A stretch of 29,821 nt of DNA from a virus. The position numbers were made by a program, and so were the translations under genes. Under the pieces are notes generated by a model that ran no database searches, was not told the DNA's origin, and was given only the letters and a program-made list of their open reading frames with translations. Shown here piece by piece: positions 2,007-29,769 of the stretch (positions are counted from its first letter, which is position 1; each line of letters begins with the position of its first letter). Location: IMG/VR virus record IMGVR_UViG_3300022209_000011, positions 1 through 29,821 of that record. One strand, written 5' to 3'.

Positions 2007-3340
2007 GATGGCCTTGGCAGAAAGCAGACCGGGAGATTCAGACACAAGCAGGCGTCGAGTGGGCCGCCGAGATGAAGCTCACACTGAATCAATGGCTCGA
2101 GCAAATGGCGAGCCAGAATCAATCGATCTCTGGCATATCGGTCGACCCCACCAACGCGCTGCGCTGCACCGCTGTTTATGGCGTCGTGCGGGCCATGACC
2201 AACGCGATCAGTTCCTATCCGGTCTATGTTGAAAAGCAGACCGAGGCCGCCGGGCGCATCAAGCGGGAACGGGTCGGCGACCACGCGCTGGTGCCGCGGC
2301 TTCGACGGCCAAACGCCGTGCACACTCGCGCGGAGTTCTTTTCACTGGCCATCAAGCACGTGGTGCTATACGGCGACTTCTTTGCGCTCAAGGGCGAGGG
2401 GCGCACCGGCCCGATCAAGTACCTGCGACCCGTCGAGAATCCCGACGCGGTAACAGTCGCTGAGGTCGACTGGGGCACGGGCGTCACGTACAAGATCAAC
2501 CAAGCCGGCGCCGATCAACGGATGGTCAAGCAAGATCGGGTGCTTCACTTCACCAATGGCATCCTCGCTGACGATTGCGTCACCGGGATCAGCCCGGTCT
2601 CGAAGCTCAAAGAGGCGATTGCCATATCGATCGCGGCCGAAGAGCTGTTATCCAAGCTCTACGGCAACAACGACGTGCCGCCGTACGCAATCACCACCGA
2701 CACCGGATTCCAAAGCAAAGAAGCCTACGACCTATGGCGGGAGTCTTTCGCCGAGATGCGAGCCAAAGCCCGGGAGTCAGGGACCGGCGCGCTGCTCATG
2801 CCGCCCGGGGTCAAGGTGCAAGAGCTGTCATTCAAGCCGGTTGACGTCATGCTGGTGGACGTCATCAAGCAGAAGGCGCGCGAGATATTCGCCGGCTTCG
2901 GCGTTCCGCCGCATAAGGTGGCCGACCTTGAGCGCGCGACCTTCAGCAATATTGAAGAGCTCGACCTGGAGTTCGTGCGGGACACCATGGAGCCACATAC
3001 CACGCGATTTAGCGAGTCGATGGCGCGCGACCTGCTGACCGATGCAGACGTCCGATCCGGGCACCGGGTCGTGTTCGATCTGGAGCACGCGACCGAGGGC
3101 AAATTCTCAGAACGGCTCGAGGCTTATTCGAAGGGCTTCAACGTCGGCGTTTACTCGCCTAATGACATTCGGGCCAAACTAGGCGAAAATCCGCGGGAAG
3201 GCGGCGACGACTACTATTCACCGCTCAATATGGGGTCAAGTAATGACGTACCAGGCGACGATACAGGCGCGGGAGATAGCGACACGGATGCGGGCGCGGA
3301 ACCTGCAATCGAGTCCAATCCATTCAGCGCGGTTCAGTAA
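2003..3340 (+). CDS. Portal protein, HK97 family
   Basis: Forms the dodecameric ring at one capsid vertex through which DNA enters and leaves. The 445-residue product starts at the ATG overlapping the terL stop; an in-frame ATG 63 bases further upstream is unlikely because it lies inside terL. It shows the HK97-portal pattern: an early conserved ALRCTAVYGVVRAM helix, a LKEAIAISIAAEELLSKLYG helix in the middle, and the FGVPPHKVADLERATFSNIE segment that marks this family. The last 40 residues are Gly/Asp-rich and look disordered. Followed immediately by a small ORF and the protease, as usual for this head type. Confidence 0.96.
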   Translation: MRWPWQKADREIQTQAGVEWAAEMKLTLNQWLEQMASQNQSISGISVDPTNALRCTAVYGVVRAMTNAISSYPVYVEKQTEAAGRIKRERVGDHALVPRLRRPNAVHTRAEFFSLAIKHVVLYGDFFALKGEGRTGPIKYLRPVENPDAVTVAEVDWGTGVTYKINQAGADQRMVKQDRVLHFTNGILADDCVTGISPVSKLKEAIAISIAAEELLSKLYGNNDVPPYAITTDTGFQSKEAYDLWRESFAEMRAKARESGTGALLMPPGVKVQELSFKPVDVMLVDVIKQKAREIFAGFGVPPHKVADLERATFSNIEELDLEFVRDTMEPHTTRFSESMARDLLTDADVRSGHRVVFDLEHATEGKFSERLEAYSKGFNVGVYSPNDIRAKLGENPREGGDDYYSPLNMGSSNDVPGDDTGAGDSDTDAGAEPAIESNPFSAVQ

Positions 3341-3557
3341 GTCAGAAAGCCCCAGCTATATCAACGGCGGCGAAGGCTGGACCGAAGCCAGCGCGCGGGC
3401 CTTTCTTGATGACCACCAGATCGAGCCCGGCCGCGTCACGATCGACGGTGACTCAATCCGGGTCCGAGCGAAGAGCGCCGGCGAACACCTGAAGAATCCC
3501 GTCGCCTCGAGCGATGGCGTGCCGCTGGGCGTGGTCGTGATTCGATGCACAAACTAA
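3288..3557 (+). CDS. Small head-module protein of unknown function
   Basis: An 89-residue ORF between portal and protease, read in a frame different from both. It overlaps the portal end by about 50 bases and the protease start by 13. The start is uncertain: ATG at 3288 is used here and an in-frame ATG at 3243 would lengthen it by 15 residues. The part that does not overlap the portal (GGEGWTEASARAFLDDHQIE onward, then a basic segment ending VVIRCTN) has normal coding composition. No domain is recognised. A similarly placed small ORF occurs in other HK97-type head operons, which favours a real gene. Confidence 0.6.
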   Translation: MRARNLQSSPIHSARFSKSESPSYINGGEGWTEASARAFLDDHQIEPGRVTIDGDSIRVRAKSAGEHLKNPVASSDGVPLGVVVIRCTN

Positions 3558-4188: not shown

Positions 4189-5478
4189 ATGTCAGAACGC
4201 AATAACGACTATGCCCAATTGAAAGAGGCCATGCACGAAGTGGGCGCGGCCTTCGAAGAGTTCAAGACCGAAAACGACGCGATGCTCGAGAAGAAAGCAG
4301 ACGGCAAGGCCGTTGCCGAGCAGTTGGCAAAGATTGAGCGCATCGATGCGGCGCTTGAAGAGGCCGACAAAAAGCACCGCGCGGCTATCAATACGATCGA
4401 GGCCGACCGCGCCCGCATCGAAGACCTGGAAGCCCGCATTGCGACGGGGCTCCGGTCAGGCGATCAGGGTGCGAAAGAGGCGCACTTAGAGAGCTTTGTC
4501 GCGTACTTGCAGAATCCGCGCGCCAATGCGCTCGATAAGCTGTACACGAATGAAACCAAGTACCGGGCCACACTGCCGCAGACCAAGCAGATCAACCTGG
4601 CGTCAGCTGCTGCCGGTGAAGCTCTGGTGCCGGAAATCATCGTCGATGAGATTGAGAAAATGGAGAAGAAAAACTCTCCGATTCGCAATCTGATACCGGT
4701 CCGGACGGTGGGGTCGACCGACTTTAAGCAAACCGTCGATATCGGCGGGGCGGCTTCAGGGTGGCTGGCAGAGACCGGCACGCGCACGGTGACGGCCAAC
4801 TCGACGCTGCGAGTTCGGACGCCGACCTGGGGTGAGCTCTACGCGCGACCGCAGGCCAGCGAGTGGTCCATGATGGACATTCCCGGCGCCATGGCATGGA
4901 TTGCCGAAATGGTCGCCGATGAGTTCATTTCGGCTGAAGGCATTGCAGTCCTAACCGGCAACGGCACCAACAAGCCCACGGGTATCCTGAACACGGCACC
5001 ACTGACCACCGATGACTGGGCGAGCCCGCTACGCTCGGCCGAGGCCATCGAGGACATTGTGGCGCCGTCGCCAGACGATATCAGCGAGCACGTCTTGATG
5101 CTGATCTATGCGCTGAACGGCAAATATCGCAACGGGTCGAAGTTCGCCATGAACAGCGTCACGCTGGGCGAAGTGCGACGGGCGAAGGACTCCAACGGCC
5201 AGTATCTATGGCAGCCATCTTTCCAAAGCGGCGAGCCATCCATGATCGCGGGTTACGGCTTCGAAGTGCTAGAAGATATGGACAATACCGGCCTAAGCCC
5301 GGTGGGCCATCCGATCCTATTCGGTAACTGGTCTCGGGCTTACCTGTTGGCGCAACGCTCTGACGTCATGCTCCTGGTCGACCCGTATACGACCATTGGC
5401 TTAGTGTCTTATTGGTTCCGCCGCCGCGAGGGTGGCATCATTCTCAACAATGATGCACTCAAGGCAGCAACCCGCTAG
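4189..5478 (+). CDS. Major capsid protein, HK97 fold
   Basis: The shell protein. About residues 1-105 are charged, heptad-like helix (LAKIERIDAALEEADKKHRA), matching the delta domain that acts as a built-in scaffold and is removed by the protease. The mature part begins around residue 110-120 and contains a typical phage capsid run: GEALVPEIIVDEI, then IPVRTVGSTDFKQTVD, GWLAETGTRT and a final SYWFRRREGGIILNNDALKA. The 429-residue length equals a typical delta-domain plus HK97-fold protein. No separate scaffold or decoration gene follows directly; the next genes are the glycan cassette. Confidence 0.95.
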   Translation: MSERNNDYAQLKEAMHEVGAAFEEFKTENDAMLEKKADGKAVAEQLAKIERIDAALEEADKKHRAAINTIEADRARIEDLEARIATGLRSGDQGAKEAHLESFVAYLQNPRANALDKLYTNETKYRATLPQTKQINLASAAAGEALVPEIIVDEIEKMEKKNSPIRNLIPVRTVGSTDFKQTVDIGGAASGWLAETGTRTVTANSTLRVRTPTWGELYARPQASEWSMMDIPGAMAWIAEMVADEFISAEGIAVLTGNGTNKPTGILNTAPLTTDDWASPLRSAEAIEDIVAPSPDDISEHVLMLIYALNGKYRNGSKFAMNSVTLGEVRRAKDSNGQYLWQPSFQSGEPSMIAGYGFEVLEDMDNTGLSPVGHPILFGNWSRAYLLAQRSDVMLLVDPYTTIGLVSYWFRRREGGIILNNDALKAATR

Positions 5479-5647
5479 GCGTCTCAGGCTGACGAAAAGG
5501 TGGCGGTCCAGTCGATGGGCCGCCACTCTTGAGCCCGGTGACTATGTCGTCGGTGAGACCATTAACAAATATGATGCCTTCCGCGCGATCCGTTCAGGCG
5601 CTGCGAAATGGGTGGCCCATCAACAGCCAGAAACCAAGCTGGCCTGA
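5432..5647 (+). CDS. Small ORF overlapping capsid end, unknown
   Basis: A 71-residue ORF that starts inside the capsid gene (ATG 5432, or 5450/5453). The final 40 residues (LEPGDYVVGETINKYDAF, then AIRSGAAKWV) look like genuine protein. The first 30 residues are Arg/Trp/Ser-rich and look like out-of-frame reading of capsid DNA. Either the true start is non-canonical near 5500-5530 or a one-base change near 5530 separates the body from a start in the neighbouring frame. There, GTG at 5500 opens a short reading that stops at 5532. No function is proposed. Confidence 0.4.
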   Translation: MASFSTMMHSRQQPARRLRLTKRWRSSRWAATLEPGDYVVGETINKYDAFRAIRSGAAKWVAHQQPETKLA

Positions 5648-6221
5648 CTGGACCGGGCAGACCGCGATCTGCATGGCAAACGGACCCAGCTTGACGCTGG
5701 CCGACGTCACCGCGGCATTTAACTCAGGGCATCCGGCTATTGCGATCAATCACGTGGCGCCGAAGTGGGCGCCGTGGTGCGATATATGGTACGCGGCCGA
5801 TCAGAAGTTTTGGGCGCTGTGCCACTCGCCGCACGTCGGCGGCTTGCGGGTCTCGGCCGATCCTGGCCCGGTCACCAACGGCTGGGCGCACCTTCAGCTG
5901 CAAGTGCACGGCGATCCTGAGAATGAGACTTTCGAAGTGGGGAAGTCAACGCACGGCCAGCATTCCGGCTATCAGGCGCTGGTCATGGCCATTGCGCTCG
6001 GCGCCAGCCGGGTGCTATTGCTTGGATATGACTGTAAGCCCCAGCAAGGCAAGACCCATGCAATCGAGAAGCCGCTGGCGCACCAGCCGAGCGCGCCGCG
6101 TGAGCGCTGGCCCGATATGTACAGACGGCTCCCAGTTCCTGCAGGCGTCGAGGTCGTGAACTGTACGGCGGGCTCTGCAATTCGAGCGTTTCCAGTGTGC
6201 GCCATAGTCGACGCGCTATGA
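5571..6221 (+). CDS. DUF115/MptE-like Rossmann protein, putative glycan enzyme
   Basis: First gene of the cassette inserted between capsid and connector. Numbered from ATG 5571 (216 aa), it has a first-strand motif ICMANGPSL (33-41), followed by AIAINHV, a CDIWYAAD segment (70-77) and a later strand GASRVLLLGYD (144-153). This order resembles the Rossmann-type family that includes DUF115/MptE-like proteins and CST-type sialyltransferases; phage homologues usually sit beside sugar-related genes. Inference: it handles a nucleotide-linked substrate, perhaps a nucleotide sugar. The start is unclear (TTG 5529, ATG 5544, 5571 or 5574); none has a good ribosome site. It ends in an ATGA overlap with the sulfotransferase gene. 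Confidence 0.7.
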   Translation: MMPSARSVQALRNGWPINSQKPSWPDWTGQTAICMANGPSLTLADVTAAFNSGHPAIAINHVAPKWAPWCDIWYAADQKFWALCHSPHVGGLRVSADPGPVTNGWAHLQLQVHGDPENETFEVGKSTHGQHSGYQALVMAIALGASRVLLLGYDCKPQQGKTHAIEKPLAHQPSAPRERWPDMYRRLPVPAGVEVVNCTAGSAIRAFPVCAIVDAL

Positions 6222-6829
6222 CCGCAGACCTACCACAAGAGCAACTCATGGCGCCGGATGGCTCTTATGTGCTTTGGCTGGTCCCTAAATGCGCGTCGAC
6301 CACAATGCAGCGCGTCTTTCGCGAAAGTCACCGCGTGACGCCGATATCGCAAATACCTGTAAAGTGTAAGCGGATAGCCATAGTGCGCCAGCCGTTACGC
6401 CGGCTGGTGTCGACCTATCTGGACAAGATTCTCGGCCAGCGCAATTCGGGGTCTATCAGCATCAACCGAAGCGATGGGGATAAAGCCATTCCTGGGATCG
6501 AGCCCGGTATGGACTTCGATTCATTTTGCGAGGTCGTGCTTGAACATCCGAAATCAAATCGCCACTGGATCGCACAAGCCGATTGGATAGCCAGCGACGG
6601 CCGCGAGGCTGATTATCTGGTGGCGTTTGAGCAGTTGCCCGCGGCTTGGGATTCTTTGGCGTTCCTGGGCGTGCCGGCATGGCCTGCGGAGCGCCACGGC
6701 GTCACGGGATTCAAGGGCAACCCGGACAGCCTTTATTCAGCCGACCTGAAGCGACGGCTGACCGAGCTGTATGCACGCGACCTTGAACTATGCAAATCTG
6801 CGCTCTTACCACTAGAAAACGAAAGGTAA
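6218..6829 (+). CDS. PAPS-dependent sulfotransferase (Sulfotransfer_2-like)
   Basis: Predicted to move sulfate from PAPS to a carbohydrate hydroxyl or amine in the cytoplasm. The 203-residue protein shows both cofactor motifs of the family. The 5'-phosphosulfate loop is VPKCASTT (22-29; the usual form is PKCGST or PKVAST), and the 3'-phosphate motif is IVRQPLRRLVSTY (55-67; the usual form is RDPxxRxxSxY). The product is short for a carbohydrate sulfotransferase (often 250-300 aa), so it may be a minimal core. It overlaps the previous gene by four bases and precedes the methyltransferase by five, so it is part of one operon. Sulfotransferases are rare in phages of this size. The acceptor is unknown. 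Confidence 0.85.
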   Translation: MTADLPQEQLMAPDGSYVLWLVPKCASTTMQRVFRESHRVTPISQIPVKCKRIAIVRQPLRRLVSTYLDKILGQRNSGSISINRSDGDKAIPGIEPGMDFDSFCEVVLEHPKSNRHWIAQADWIASDGREADYLVAFEQLPAAWDSLAFLGVPAWPAERHGVTGFKGNPDSLYSADLKRRLTELYARDLELCKSALLPLENER

Positions 6830-6834
6830 ACAAT

Positions 6835-7392
6835 ATGATTACCGAACAAGACAAATATTCCGAGTGCTATAAGCTCAAGACCTACAAGCTGCAGGGCGCA
6901 CGCCTTCAGCGGGTCATGGTCGACAATGACGGGCTTGAGCCTGGCACGACTTATCTCGATGTAGGCTGCGGCCGCGGCGAGCTGGTGCACGCGGCCCTAC
7001 GGCGAGGCGTCAAGGCCAAAGGGCTTGAGCTGGTGCCGTATCTCTGCGACGGCGAGAAGATCATCAACGGGAACCTGAGCAAGTTGCCGTTCCGCAAAAA
7101 CGAGTTCGATACCGTCAGCTGCTATGACGTTATTGAGCACTTACCGACCGCCGAGGTCGACCAGGCGCTTAGCGAGCTCTTCCGGGTCGCCAAAAAGCGG
7201 CTGATCTTGACCACCAACAACAAGGCGTCGACCTATCAAGGCATGGATTTACACCTGACCCGCAAGCCGCGCGACTGGTGGCAAGCCAAGCTCGAGAAGC
7301 GGGCCGAGTCGGTGAGCTTTTCCGGGTATGGCCGCGATGAGTGGCACTTCGATTGCGTCATCAAGCCCAGTGCGATCAAGCCTAAACAATAA
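6835..7392 (+). CDS. Class I SAM-dependent methyltransferase
   Basis: Predicted small-molecule or glycan methyltransferase. The 185-residue protein (start ATG 6835, behind a GAAAGG ribosome site; an ATG 45 bases upstream lies inside the sulfotransferase gene) has motif I YLDVGCGRGEL (40-50), an acidic motif II GLELVP (63-68) and a motif IV-like CYDVIEHLP (96-104). These are the Methyltransf_11 pattern and not the DPPY/NPPY of DNA adenine methylases or the PC of cytosine-5 enzymes, so DNA is an unlikely substrate. The C-terminal half (YQGMDLHLTRKPRDWW) resembles sugar or lipid methyltransferases encoded beside glycosyltransferases. Confidence 0.85.
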   Translation: MITEQDKYSECYKLKTYKLQGARLQRVMVDNDGLEPGTTYLDVGCGRGELVHAALRRGVKAKGLELVPYLCDGEKIINGNLSKLPFRKNEFDTVSCYDVIEHLPTAEVDQALSELFRVAKKRLILTTNNKASTYQGMDLHLTRKPRDWWQAKLEKRAESVSFSGYGRDEWHFDCVIKPSAIKPKQ

Positions 7393-8098
7393 GCCGCACC
7401 AGGCCGCCGTAGAGAGCGCTTTCGCGGCGGGGCTTGCGGAGCATGGCGAGCGATGGGATGACGGCGCTCCGGTCAGTTGGGGCAGCCTGCGAGGCGTCGA
7501 GCATTACCTGTGCCTGGAAGCTGGCAACCTGACCGGCACGAAGGGCAGCTATATCAATCGGCGCCTGGATTACATCTCCGCATCGTGGAACGGCTACGGC
7601 TACGAAGGGCGGATTCCACCGGTCAAGGCCACGCGCTTCGATCTGCCGCTGGCTGACTGGAAAACCGAGGGCGACTATGTTCTGGTGCTCGGCCAGGTCG
7701 CAGGCGACAGGGTCGTGCCGCCGGAATATAGCAAGCTCTTATTCCGCACCGCGGCCGAGCTTCGGTCGGAGTTCGATCGGGTCATGTATCGGCCGCACCC
7801 GCTGGGCTCGCCCGATCTGCCGCTGGTCAAGGTCATGGGAAGCCTCGAGGATTCGCTGACCCGGGCTTATGGCGCCGTCACGTACAATTCGAACGCGGCG
7901 GTTGAGGCGATACTGGCGGGCGTTCCTGTAATATGCCTTAATCGCAAGTGTGCAGCGTGGCCAGTCAGCGGGCACTATATAGAGCCCTTCAGCCGGCCGG
8001 ATCGATCGCAGTGGCTGGCCGAGTTGACGCACCGCAATTGGAAGCTCAGCGAGATTCGATCAGGCGCAATGTGGGAGTTCTTAAAGGCTTATGAGTAA
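7370..8098 (+). CDS. GT-B-like glycosyltransferase, capsule/KpsS-like fold
   Basis: Last gene of the cassette. The C-terminal half has a YRPHP motif (about residues 140-144 from the GTG start) followed by NSNAAVEAILAGVPVI (173-188). That arrangement, an Arg-Pro-His-Pro strand then an Asn-Ser plus Gly-x-Pro-Val loop, is seen in the nucleotide-sugar half of GT-B enzymes such as UDP-GlcNAc 2-epimerase and Kps-type polysaccharide enzymes. The N-terminal half (LCLEAGNLTG, SASWNGYGYEGR) would be the acceptor half. At about 242 residues it is small for a full GT-B protein. GTG 7370 is used here; ATG 7328 or 7337 would overlap the methyltransferase more. The stop overlaps the connector start by eight bases. 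Confidence 0.65.
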   Translation: MRSSLNNKPHQAAVESAFAAGLAEHGERWDDGAPVSWGSLRGVEHYLCLEAGNLTGTKGSYINRRLDYISASWNGYGYEGRIPPVKATRFDLPLADWKTEGDYVLVLGQVAGDRVVPPEYSKLLFRTAAELRSEFDRVMYRPHPLGSPDLPLVKVMGSLEDSLTRAYGAVTYNSNAAVEAILAGVPVICLNRKCAAWPVSGHYIEPFSRPDRSQWLAELTHRNWKLSEIRSGAMWEFLKAYE

Positions 8099-8654
8099 CG
8101 CACTACTAGCCGCCAGCGAAACGGATGCCGCTCAGGTCGTCACGCTTCGTGAGGCCAAAGCGCACCTGCGGATCACGCTCGACGCTGAAGACGACCGCAC
8201 CATGGTGGAGCTCGACGCCGCGATATCCTGGGCGGCCGACTACATGCGCCGGCCCGTGCGCCGCACGCAATACACACTATCGATGCCGACCTGGGACCGG
8301 CTCCGAAACAATCGCGCGGGAGTGCACCTGCGCGGCTATGTCGCCTCGGTCGATTCGATCGAGTACACCGACTCAGCCGGCACGCTGCAGACCATCGCCA
8401 GCAGCGTGTATGAGGTCAAGACCGGAACGCACCACGCGGAAGTGCGCGAGCTTCCCAACCAGTCATGGCCTGGGCTTAACGAATACATGGAAGCCGTCAA
8501 GGTCACGTATACGGCCGGCTACACGCAGGCCGACGTGCCGTTCCCGATCAAGCAGGCGATTCTGCTCAAGCTCGAGCACATTCACGATGACTCAGCGGCA
8601 GCCCTATCGAGCGCTGAGTCTCTTTGCATGGCGTGGATACTGCCGCCGTGGTAG
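8091..8654 (+). CDS. Head-tail connector, gp6/phiE125 gp8-like
   Basis: Adaptor protein that docks under the portal. The 187-residue product begins with the family-typical VTLREAKAHLRI (residues 17-28), followed by an acidic DAEDDRTMVELDAAISWAAD helix, a beta-rich middle (GYVASVDSIEYTDSAGTLQ) and a VTYTAGY segment before a final helix VPFPIKQAILLKLEHI. This order is that of the gp6-like head-tail connector and phiE125 gp8 family. The C-terminus overlaps the next gene. It resumes the normal head-to-tail gene order after the glycan cassette. Confidence 0.9.
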   Translation: MSNALLAASETDAAQVVTLREAKAHLRITLDAEDDRTMVELDAAISWAADYMRRPVRRTQYTLSMPTWDRLRNNRAGVHLRGYVASVDSIEYTDSAGTLQTIASSVYEVKTGTHHAEVRELPNQSWPGLNEYMEAVKVTYTAGYTQADVPFPIKQAILLKLEHIHDDSAAALSSAESLCMAWILPPW

Positions 8655-8983
8655 CGGAGACGGTTGCACTGTTACGCGAGCGCGTTGACATTGAAAGTGC
8701 GGCGAGCGTGTCAGACGGCGCCGGCGGCCAGACCATTACTTGGTCAGCCGAGCATTCATCGGTCCCGGCCATGGTCCGTCCAGTGAAGGGCCGCGAGGGC
8801 GAATCACTGGGCCGAGAAACGAGCATTCAGACCTATCTAGTCACGGTGCGCCACGGCTACACGGTGACCACCAGGCACCGGCTGCTATGGGGCTCAACTT
8901 ATCTCAATATCCGAAGTGTGGAGAATCGCGACCTGCGCAACCGATTCTTGACGATGGAATGCGAGGTCGGCTTTGGCACGTAG
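8633..8983 (+). CDS. Head-tail adaptor / head closure protein
   Basis: A small beta-barrel protein of the SPP1 gp16 / Phage_H_T_join type that seals the connector after packaging. Features visible are LRERVDIESAASVSDGAGGQ near the N-terminus, a central TYLVTVRHGYTVTTRHRLLW strand pair and the final WGSTYLNIRSVENRDLRNRF segment, a pattern shared by head-tail joining proteins. About 116 residues, normal for the family. GTG 8633 is used as start, with TTG 8624 as an alternative; both overlap the connector end. The next start overlaps its stop. Confidence 0.85.
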   Translation: MDTAAVVAETVALLRERVDIESAASVSDGAGGQTITWSAEHSSVPAMVRPVKGREGESLGRETSIQTYLVTVRHGYTVTTRHRLLWGSTYLNIRSVENRDLRNRFLTMECEVGFGT

Positions 8984-27415: not shown

Positions 27416-29095
27416 ATGGCATTTGCAGCCGTTGCCACGACCGCGGGATCGAATCAGGCAGGCTACGGCACTAGCCACTCATTCACGCTCCCGTCGAGCA
27501 TCTCAACCGGCGACCTTTTGATCGTCAAGATTGCGGTAATCCGCAGCAGCAACAGCACGCCGCCAGTTATTACAGGTCCGAGCGGGTGGACGCAGATAAC
27601 AGCAAACGGTGGCGGCAGGCACCAGTCAGAGACGTTTTACAAGGTCGCCACCGGGAGCAATGCCAACTCGTTTAGCACTGACGTCGGCGTGGCGTCGGCT
27701 TGTGTCTGCTTCCGAATCACCGGGGATGATGGCGCCGCTCCCACGGCGACCAACTCGACGGCGACCACGTGCGATCCGCCGTCTCATACGCCAGCCGGAG
27801 GCGCAGACGACATCTTATGGCTGGCCTCAACAAGCATAGGCAGGTCTAACAACTCAACGCCGTCAGTTGATACAGCGCCAAGCGGATACAGCGGGCTTGT
27901 CAATGCAGACGGGCAGCCGAGAACGACCTGCGGCATGGCATACCGCGAAAACAATGCCACCTCGGAAGACCCGGGCGCGTTTTCGTTTACCGATGCGCAA
28001 GCAAGCAGCTCCGAGACAATTTCTGTCTATCCGGCGGCAGCCGGTGGAGACATAACCGCCGCCGGCACCGCCTCGATCACCGGGTCGGCCACGTTAAGCG
28101 CGCTGGGAGCTCTTGCGGCAGCGGGTGCTCTGGCAATTGCGGGTGCTGGCGCATTATCCGGGGCCGGCGCGCTTGATGCCGCTGGGGCAGCATCAATATC
28201 TGGATCGGCCACATTAACGGCCAGCGGAACAGCGACGGCGGCAGGCGCGCTATCGATTGCGGGCGCCGCAGACCTTGATGCGCTTGGTGCGATGGTCGCT
28301 GCGGGCGCGGTAGTCATAACTGGCGCGGCAGACCTACAAGACACGCCGACAAATGACATAACGGCGGCCGGCACCGCCTCGATCACCGGCTCTGCCGATT
28401 TGGACGCGCTCGGCAGCTTAGGTGCTTCGGGCGCGGCATCAATTAGCGGCTCGGCCGACCTGAATGCGGCTGGGCTATTAACGGCGGCTGGTGACGCCTC
28501 GATTGTTGGCGCTGCCGCATTAACGTCAGCCGGCGATATCGATGCCGCGGGCGCGCTATCAATCGTTGGTTCCGCCGATCTGAATGCGTCGGGCACGCTA
28601 GATTCCGCCGGCGCGCTTTCAATCAGCGGTTCGGCTTCTCTGACCGATGCTGGCTCGAGCGATATCACTGCCGCCGGCACCGCCTCGATCACGGGCTCTG
28701 CCACGCTTAACGCGCCGGGAACGCTGGCAGCGACTGGTGCCGCCTCGATAACCGGTTCTGCAGACCTGGACGCTGGCGGTGCGCTATCGGCTACCGGCGC
28801 GCTCTCCATCACGGGGTCGGCCAGCCTCACCGGGTTAGCTGCTAACGACTTGGTTTCTGCCGGTGCCGCCTCGATAACCGGTTCTGCAGACCTGGACGCT
28901 GGCGGTGCGCTATCGGCTACCGGCGCGCTCTCGATCACGGGGTCGGCATCAATCACCGCACTGACGGCCTCAACCGCTTTGCACAAAACGGCATCGATGG
29001 CTGATAGTTATGGCAAGACGGCTACAATGGCTGACAGCAACGGCAAAACGGCTACAATGGCCGATAGCAACGGCAAAATAGGAACGCTCGACTAA
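27416..29095 (+). CDS. Repeat-bearing tail fibre protein
   Basis: A 559-residue protein in three parts. Residues 1-205 are a beta-sandwich of a type common in phage tail fibres (ISTGDLLIVKIAVIRSSNST, GPSGWTQITANGGG, ETFYKVATGSNANSFSTD). Residues 212-523 hold about fifteen 20-residue units of the type AAGAASISGSADLxAxG, grouped in blocks of 5, 5, 3 and 2, each block opening with DITAAGTASITGSA or a variant. Residues 524-559 hold three 10-residue units (KTATMADSNG). The middle is Ala/Gly/Ser/Thr-rich and would form a long beta fibre. No catalytic or chaperone domain is seen. Confidence 0.8.
   Translation: MAFAAVATTAGSNQAGYGTSHSFTLPSSISTGDLLIVKIAVIRSSNSTPPVITGPSGWTQITANGGGRHQSETFYKVATGSNANSFSTDVGVASACVCFRITGDDGAAPTATNSTATTCDPPSHTPAGGADDILWLASTSIGRSNNSTPSVDTAPSGYSGLVNADGQPRTTCGMAYRENNATSEDPGAFSFTDAQASSSETISVYPAAAGGDITAAGTASITGSATLSALGALAAAGALAIAGAGALSGAGALDAAGAASISGSATLTASGTATAAGALSIAGAADLDALGAMVAAGAVVITGAADLQDTPTNDITAAGTASITGSADLDALGSLGASGAASISGSADLNAAGLLTAAGDASIVGAAALTSAGDIDAAGALSIVGSADLNASGTLDSAGALSISGSASLTDAGSSDITAAGTASITGSATLNAPGTLAATGAASITGSADLDAGGALSATGALSITGSASLTGLAANDLVSAGAASITGSADLDAGGALSATGALSITGSASITALTASTALHKTASMADSYGKTATMADSNGKTATMADSNGKIGTLD
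28049..29074 (+). repeat. 60-bp and 30-bp coding repeats in fibre gene
   Basis: A 60-bp (20-codon) unit is repeated about fifteen times. Block starts at 28049, 28355 and 28661 are exactly 306 bp apart (five units plus two codons); the next block starts at 28847. An 86-bp stretch at 28736-28821 recurs at 28862-28947 with one difference, so the most recent duplication is near the 3' end. Three 30-bp units follow at 28985-29014, 29015-29044 and 29045-29074. Confidence 0.9.
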
Positions 29096-29469: not shown

Positions 29470-29769
29470 ATGGCAACGCTCAATCTGTACGGTCATGCGC
29501 GCTGGCGTAGACGCAGAGCTCACCAGCTCAGAGCTGAGCCGCTTTGCGCGTTCTGCACTCGACTCGGCCGCACGGTGCCGGCGACGGTGGCAGACCACGT
29601 CGAGCCGCACCGCGGAGACCTCGACCTATTTTGGAATGGCGCGCTGCAGTCGCTTTGCAAGTTCTGCCATGACTCAGTCAAGAAACGCGCCGAAGATAGC
29701 GGAGCCGAGCTCGGTTGCGACGTCGATGGCACGCCGATCGACCCGTCTCACCACTGGGTGACGGGGTAG
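29470..29769 (+). CDS. HNH endonuclease, terminase-associated
   Basis: A 99-residue protein with a clear HNH zinc fold: LCAFCTRLGR (first Cys pair), VADHVEPHRGD (D-H, the HNH general base region), LFWNGALQSLCKFCHDSVKK (asparagine then second Cys pair and final His). In HK97-type phages a gene like this sits directly before the small terminase and takes part in cos cleavage with the terminase. Joining the window ends would put it about 100 bp before terS, so it supports a circular map. Confidence 0.9.
   Translation: MATLNLYGHARWRRRRAHQLRAEPLCAFCTRLGRTVPATVADHVEPHRGDLDLFWNGALQSLCKFCHDSVKKRAEDSGAELGCDVDGTPIDPSHHWVTG

Follow-up and report, generated by a model that had tools for sequence, protein, structure and literature searches.

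Four co-directional genes lying between the capsid gene and the head-tail connector gene of a virus genome probably make up a late-expressed virion-glycosylation cassette, through which a head or neck protein would receive CMP-ulosonate sugars that are then O-methylated and sulfated. The window analysed was an entire IMG/VR virus record (29,821 bases).

The head operon and its four-gene insert

The late operon of the window is of HK97 type, and its genes run in the order TerS, TerL, portal, an unassigned ORF, protease, capsid, the four cassette genes (g1 to g4), connector Ad1, Hc1, neck and tail. TerL is 60% identical to TerL of Pseudomonas phage PAJU2. The features of the region are as follows.

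3243-3557, no strand given: ORF of 104 aa in the portal-protease interval, without family assignment by Pfam or PHROGs
4189-5478, + strand: HK97-type major capsid protein (PF05065, 7.4e-49; TIGR01554, 3e-68); upstream flank and possible acceptor
5497-5530, + strand: GC-rich hairpin directly 3′ of the capsid stop (dG -24.7 kcal/mol, z -4.9), without a T-tract
5571-6221, + strand: g1, Maf/CstII-like (CMP-nonulosonate transferase superfamily) glycosyltransferase by PHROG_4603, fold and profile; homologue of P1 PmgO and D3 Orf7
6218-6829, + strand: g2, Sulfotransfer_2 sulfotransferase (PF03567, 4.4e-14); most likely start ATG 6218
6835-7392, + strand: g3, class I SAM methyltransferase of a cassette-specific subfamily (PF08241, 3.3e-13); most likely start ATG 6835
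7370-8098, + strand: g4, KpsC/WbbB-like (retaining beta-Kdo transferase) glycosyltransferase by fold and profile; start most likely GTG 7370 (or ATG 7328)
8091-8654, + strand: head-tail connector Ad1 (PHROG_442, 2.6e-21); shares 8 bases with the end of g4
8624-8983, + strand: head closure protein Hc1 (PF05521, 2.1e-18); downstream flank

The cassette genes overlap or nearly touch: the g1 stop and the g2 ATG overlap as ATGA, g2 and g3 are spaced by 5 bases, and the start of g4 overlaps g3 while its end runs into the connector ATG (8091). The initial annotation had described four co-directional, overlapping or closely spaced genes running from capsid to connector; these coordinates were borne out, and both flanks were confirmed with Pfam and PHROGs. 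The GC content of the cassette equals that of its flanks, so a recent insertion of foreign DNA is not indicated. The four cassette proteins show no hydrophobic segment of membrane type, and a DNA-level search of the 4.2-9.0 kb region against phages returned no matches.

The hairpin is possibly an attenuator or mRNA stabiliser that sets the capsid gene apart from the cassette. Strong post-capsid hairpins were found at most of the 17 capsid-g1 junctions checked, not all of them beating the best shuffle, and phage PMG1 has an annotated terminator at the equivalent place.

It had also been claimed that most HK97-type phages have nothing, or a decoration protein, at this site. This holds broadly for close capsid relatives, two of which (L004, L006) carry a single ORF of ~149 aa there, but many phages hold the same cassette. 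Another capsid relative (L008, 5864-6604) has a different GPSL-type (DUF115-like) protein of 246 aa between capsid and connector.

Elsewhere in the window, TerS (1-481) and an HNH endonuclease (29470-29769), usual neighbours across a cos site, lie at opposite ends, so the record may be near complete; end repeats were looked for and none was found. A 559 aa protein of AAGAASITGSADL-like repeats with DUF5649/Fil_haemagg matches (27416-29095) is a possible fibre.

Enzyme families and the predicted donor sugar

g1: The window protein matches PHROG_4603, "alpha-2,3-sialyltransferase" (4.8e-24), and a profile built from 47 family members matches Campylobacter CstII in the PDB (E 1.3e-4). The AF2 model (pLDDT 82.9) gave no match under 0.001 by Foldseek alone; the fold was recovered by VIA, with the best alignment to the Maf flagellin glycosyltransferase 5mu5 (Z 13.9; 179 aligned, 3.7 A) and a further one to CstII 1ro8 (Z 12.6). 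The fold and a GPS...SG...GxD core are common to g1, Maf and CstII; unlike these, g1 is virus-encoded and, at ~12-14% identity, its likeness to them is known from fold and profile. Assignment to PF01973 (MptE-like/DUF115) was rejected at 16.6 bits against a gathering cut-off of 34.6. Among the candidate catalytic residues, GPS, N60, D154 and H163 are conserved. The family motif HWHGxH is degenerate in the window, where H163 is kept and followed by A, I and E, and with part of the motif lost the activity of this g1 is not assured. Named relatives are found in D3, PMG1, PAJU2, S20, P1/P7/SJ46 (pmgO) and Caulobacter jumbo phages.

g2 and g3: The PAPS motifs and the SAM motif I read from the bare sequence both proved sound. 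g2 scores 53.7 bits against PF03567 (cut-off 22) and carries both PAPS-binding loops (5′ loop PKCAST; 3′ loop VRQPLRRLVS); a search against PDB sequences gave a sole match, weak and irrelevant, and single-protein pattern scans with g2 and with g1 returned none. Substrates of the PF03567 family are mainly carbohydrates. g3 scores 50.5 bits against PF08241 (cut-off 21.2), its motif I reads YLDVGCGRGE, and it is 35% identical to the gene that g1 and g4 flank in another viral locus (L142). A PADLOC run gave only a methyltransferase-domain match to mads_2, and the cassette was rejected as a defence system.

g4: Nothing in Pfam scored above threshold for this protein, the "putative glycosyltransferase" family DUF6716 (PF20471) reaching 26.0 against a cut-off of 27; PF05159 (Capsule_synth) was not among the matches listed for the window protein and scored 17.3 against a cut-off of 20 in a related locus (L130). 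Structure was more informative. With the AF2 model (pLDDT 88.9), Foldseek found WbbB at 1.8e-6, and the 28 PDB matches with E<=0.001 were without exception Kdo transferases (WbbB, KpsC, KrkA); comparison of the fold with Kdo transferases by VIA gave Z 12.9, and a 46-member profile matched KpsC at 2.6e-5. D127 (numbered from ATG 7328), in the GD column of the family, aligns with the KpsC residue that is mutated in the D160N and D160C entries, and an Asp equivalent to this nucleophile is present in 31 of the 46 family members. The shared fold and position of the nucleophilic Asp suggest a Kdo transferase of KpsC/WbbB type, for which use of CMP-Kdo is predicted. In contrast to KpsC, WbbB and KrkA, g4 is a smaller, single-domain protein (~250 aa) with 13-18% identity to them; it falls below Pfam thresholds and lies outside any capsule locus.

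The enzyme classes originally assigned to the four genes were right, being supported by Pfam and PHROGs for g1 to g3 and by structure and profile for g4; what the first reading had missed was the Maf/CstII-like nature of g1 and the Kdo-transferase-like nature of g4.

Two side observations concern the g4 family. Contigs L011, L012, L014, L017, L018, L156 and L193 each carry at least three tandem g4-like (Kdo-transferase-like) genes. In contig L189 (8370-8380) an in-frame TAG replaces an otherwise conserved Gln of the g4 motif GQVPGD, and a second in-frame TAG occurs in Hc1 (6613-6921); judged from these codons, the contig may read TAG as Gln. No tRNA was found on the L189 stretch.

Donor and hosts: The donors of Maf, CstII and KpsC/WbbB are in each case CMP-activated ulosonic or nonulosonic acids, and membership of both glycosyltransferases in superfamilies that use CMP-ulosonates gives the strongest indication of the donor here. 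Nearly all Gram-negative bacteria make CMP-Kdo. The named hosts listed for g1-bearing phages are Gram-negative, as dependence on CMP-Kdo predicts, some records being without a host; three "Tetraselmis" g1 records are tailed phages for which the alga is the written host. A terminase search of the same collection returned hundreds of phages of Gram-positive bacteria, so the Gram-negative hosts are not simply an effect of the collection. In bacteria, the g4 family was found in 7 of the 385 genomes belonging to the same class as a Chelativorans genome (G056), against one weak partial match among the 398 that share the phylum of a Lachnospiraceae genome (G058); this is the right direction for a Kdo requirement and too few to lean on.

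Recurrence in other viruses

In counts made with local HMMs on about 200 loci (capsid mapped by PF05065, Hc1 by PF05521; the records include near-duplicates, so that counts are not all independent), 43 of the 77 g4-selected viral loci also held g1, usually with a methyltransferase in between, and g1 was present in none of the 14 capsid- or terminase-selected loci. A methyltransferase of either of two families lay between g1 and g4 in 30 of the 47 loci holding both (window included). In each of the 20 records that combined g1, g4, capsid and Hc1 the genes were co-directional; g1 and g4 lay wholly between capsid and Hc1 in 12 of them and immediately after Hc1 (about 20-540 bases) in the other 8. 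The connector gene sits within the cassette in L123, L130 and L162, and extra modules, including a polysaccharide pyruvyltransferase and a GT2, occur in L132, L135 and L139. Elsewhere the position differs: in CcrSC the cassette genes lie between tail and lysis genes, and in phiNP between lysis genes and terminase. The linkage is also asymmetric, a g4-family partner being absent from the fetched stretch in 79 of 80 g1-selected loci (mostly D3-like); the g1-partner gene of PAJU2 had no Pfam match. Since both gene set and position recur in many unrelated viral contigs, the cassette is more than a chance arrangement.

A search for the same four-gene order, proposed with the initial annotation, thus succeeded for the core (g1, methyltransferase, g4), which recurs beside capsid and Hc1 genes; the sulfotransferase is a rare optional module present in only 3 of 50 related cassette records. 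L159 has it placed exactly between g1 and g4; in L135 it is found just upstream of the connector. Prophage CBW1004C-Prop1 (L213, 5959-6489) has a sulfotransferase family 2 gene within its packaging/head operon, upstream of the gene for a DNA-stabilising protein. Sulfotransfer_3 was found in none of the 50 cassette records; marine phages with sulfotransferases of another Pfam family (PF13469), function unknown, have been described (PMC10580990). No earlier description of such a cassette came up in word searches of the open literature, which is not proof of absence.

Proposed function and known systems

Glycosyltransferase genes are embedded here in a virion structural operon, as in phage-encoded virion glycosylation. 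On the reading that we favour, g1 and g4 would use CMP-activated ulosonic acids (most simply host CMP-Kdo, or else a CMP-nonulosonate) to glycosylate a head or neck protein: g1 would probably attach the first sugar to the protein, in the manner of Maf on flagellin, and g4 would lengthen the chain. The product would then be O-methylated by g3 and sulfated by g2 with host PAPS, so that the particle would carry a strongly acidic glycan on its surface; possible benefits include altered adsorption to polysaccharide, stability or antigenicity. The conserved association with capsid and neck genes strengthens virion decoration, already the preferred hypothesis of the initial annotation; that the capsid bears a sulfated and methylated glycan is still something that we infer.

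The main rival is a change that the enzymes would make, late in infection, to the LPS or capsule of the host surface, for example to prevent superinfection or to keep released virions off debris. The nearest characterised relatives do have glycans of the host surface as their main substrates (capsule and O-antigen for KpsC/WbbB, LOS for CstII), and D3-like phages are known seroconverters, though through other genes. We nevertheless consider a host-surface target distinctly unlikely, as the four genes include no flippase or polyprenyl-sugar transferase, their products have no transmembrane segment, and linkage to capsid and connector genes is seen in 20 of 20 testable records. A seroconversion cassette of gtr type in particular was rejected: it needs both a membrane flippase and a polyprenyl-sugar transferase, neither of which is among the four genes, and no TM-type segment is present.

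A tail or other virion-associated protein might instead be the acceptor, the post-capsid site being merely a place in the late operon where insertions are tolerated. The variable position in CcrSC and phiNP speaks for this, as does the reported modification of both capsid and tail tube in mycobacteriophages (PMC11600133); we regard it as rather unlikely, given that capsid/Hc1 placement predominates and that the connector is interleaved with the cassette in L123, L130 and L162. Phage DNA or a small molecule, in place of a glycoprotein, is a highly improbable target. Glycosyl- and methyltransferases do act on hypermodified DNA in other phages, but the closest folds here belong to CMP-ulosonate transferases whose acceptors are glycans or protein, PF03567 enzymes act mainly on carbohydrates, and no base-hypermodification gene was noticed among the annotated ORFs of the window.

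Beyond the window, modification of a head or neck protein may tentatively be extended, at somewhat less than even confidence, to a modular cassette widespread among the tailed phages that infect Gram-negative bacteria: an acidic head or neck glycan would be built from host CMP-Kdo, or a related CMP-ulosonate, by Maf-like and KpsC-like transferases and completed by an interchangeable set of finishing enzymes (methyltransferases of two families, sulfotransferase, pyruvyltransferase, GT2), with a sulfated virion glycan in the window phage. If this is true, virion glycan decoration would be common among phages of Gram-negative bacteria and would bear on particle charge, polysaccharide adsorption, stability and antibody recognition; sulfation, as a modification of phage virions, would be unusual. 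The scattered labels "alpha-2,3-sialyltransferase" and "putative morphogenetic" (P1 pmgO, D3 orf7) would become one testable system with a predicted donor chemistry, in two standard laboratory phages.

Among known regions, P1 pmgO-pmgP-ppp-pmgQ and the orf7 region of D3, PMG1 and PAJU2 are related by homology: PmgO and Orf7 are g1 homologues encoded in a late or head operon, the operon of the Pseudomonas phages D3, PMG1 and PAJU2 being equivalent to that of the window, and a methyltransferase gene lies nearby in PMG1 and PAJU2. They differ from the window in that no g4-family gene was detected and that PAJU2 and PMG1 have no sulfotransferase. P1 does not need pmgO, pmgP or pmgQ to form plaques (PMC10695390), and 24 of 29 single-gene knockouts were without plaque defect (PMC9024508); the role of these three genes is therefore at most conditional, which fits decoration rather than an assembly function.

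In architecture the cassette resembles gp35-38 of mycobacteriophage Corndog and relatives, in which several glycosyltransferases and an O-methyltransferase likewise lie within the virion structural operon. Corndog encodes an O-methyltransferase and three glycosyltransferases there, its capsid was hard to identify by MS, and modification of the capsid was proposed in 2015 (PMC4351075); in 2023 mycobacteriophage enzymes were reported to modify capsid and tail tube (Freeman et al., cited in PMC11600133). The Corndog genes, likened here by architecture, occupy the portal-protease site, come without mention of a sulfotransferase and belong to phages of actinobacterial hosts. By this analogy, the cassette may be a differently built version of the known mycobacteriophage virion glycosylation in phages of Gram-negative bacteria, and it differs from the Corndog type in its junction, in the enzyme families identified here and in its sulfotransferase.
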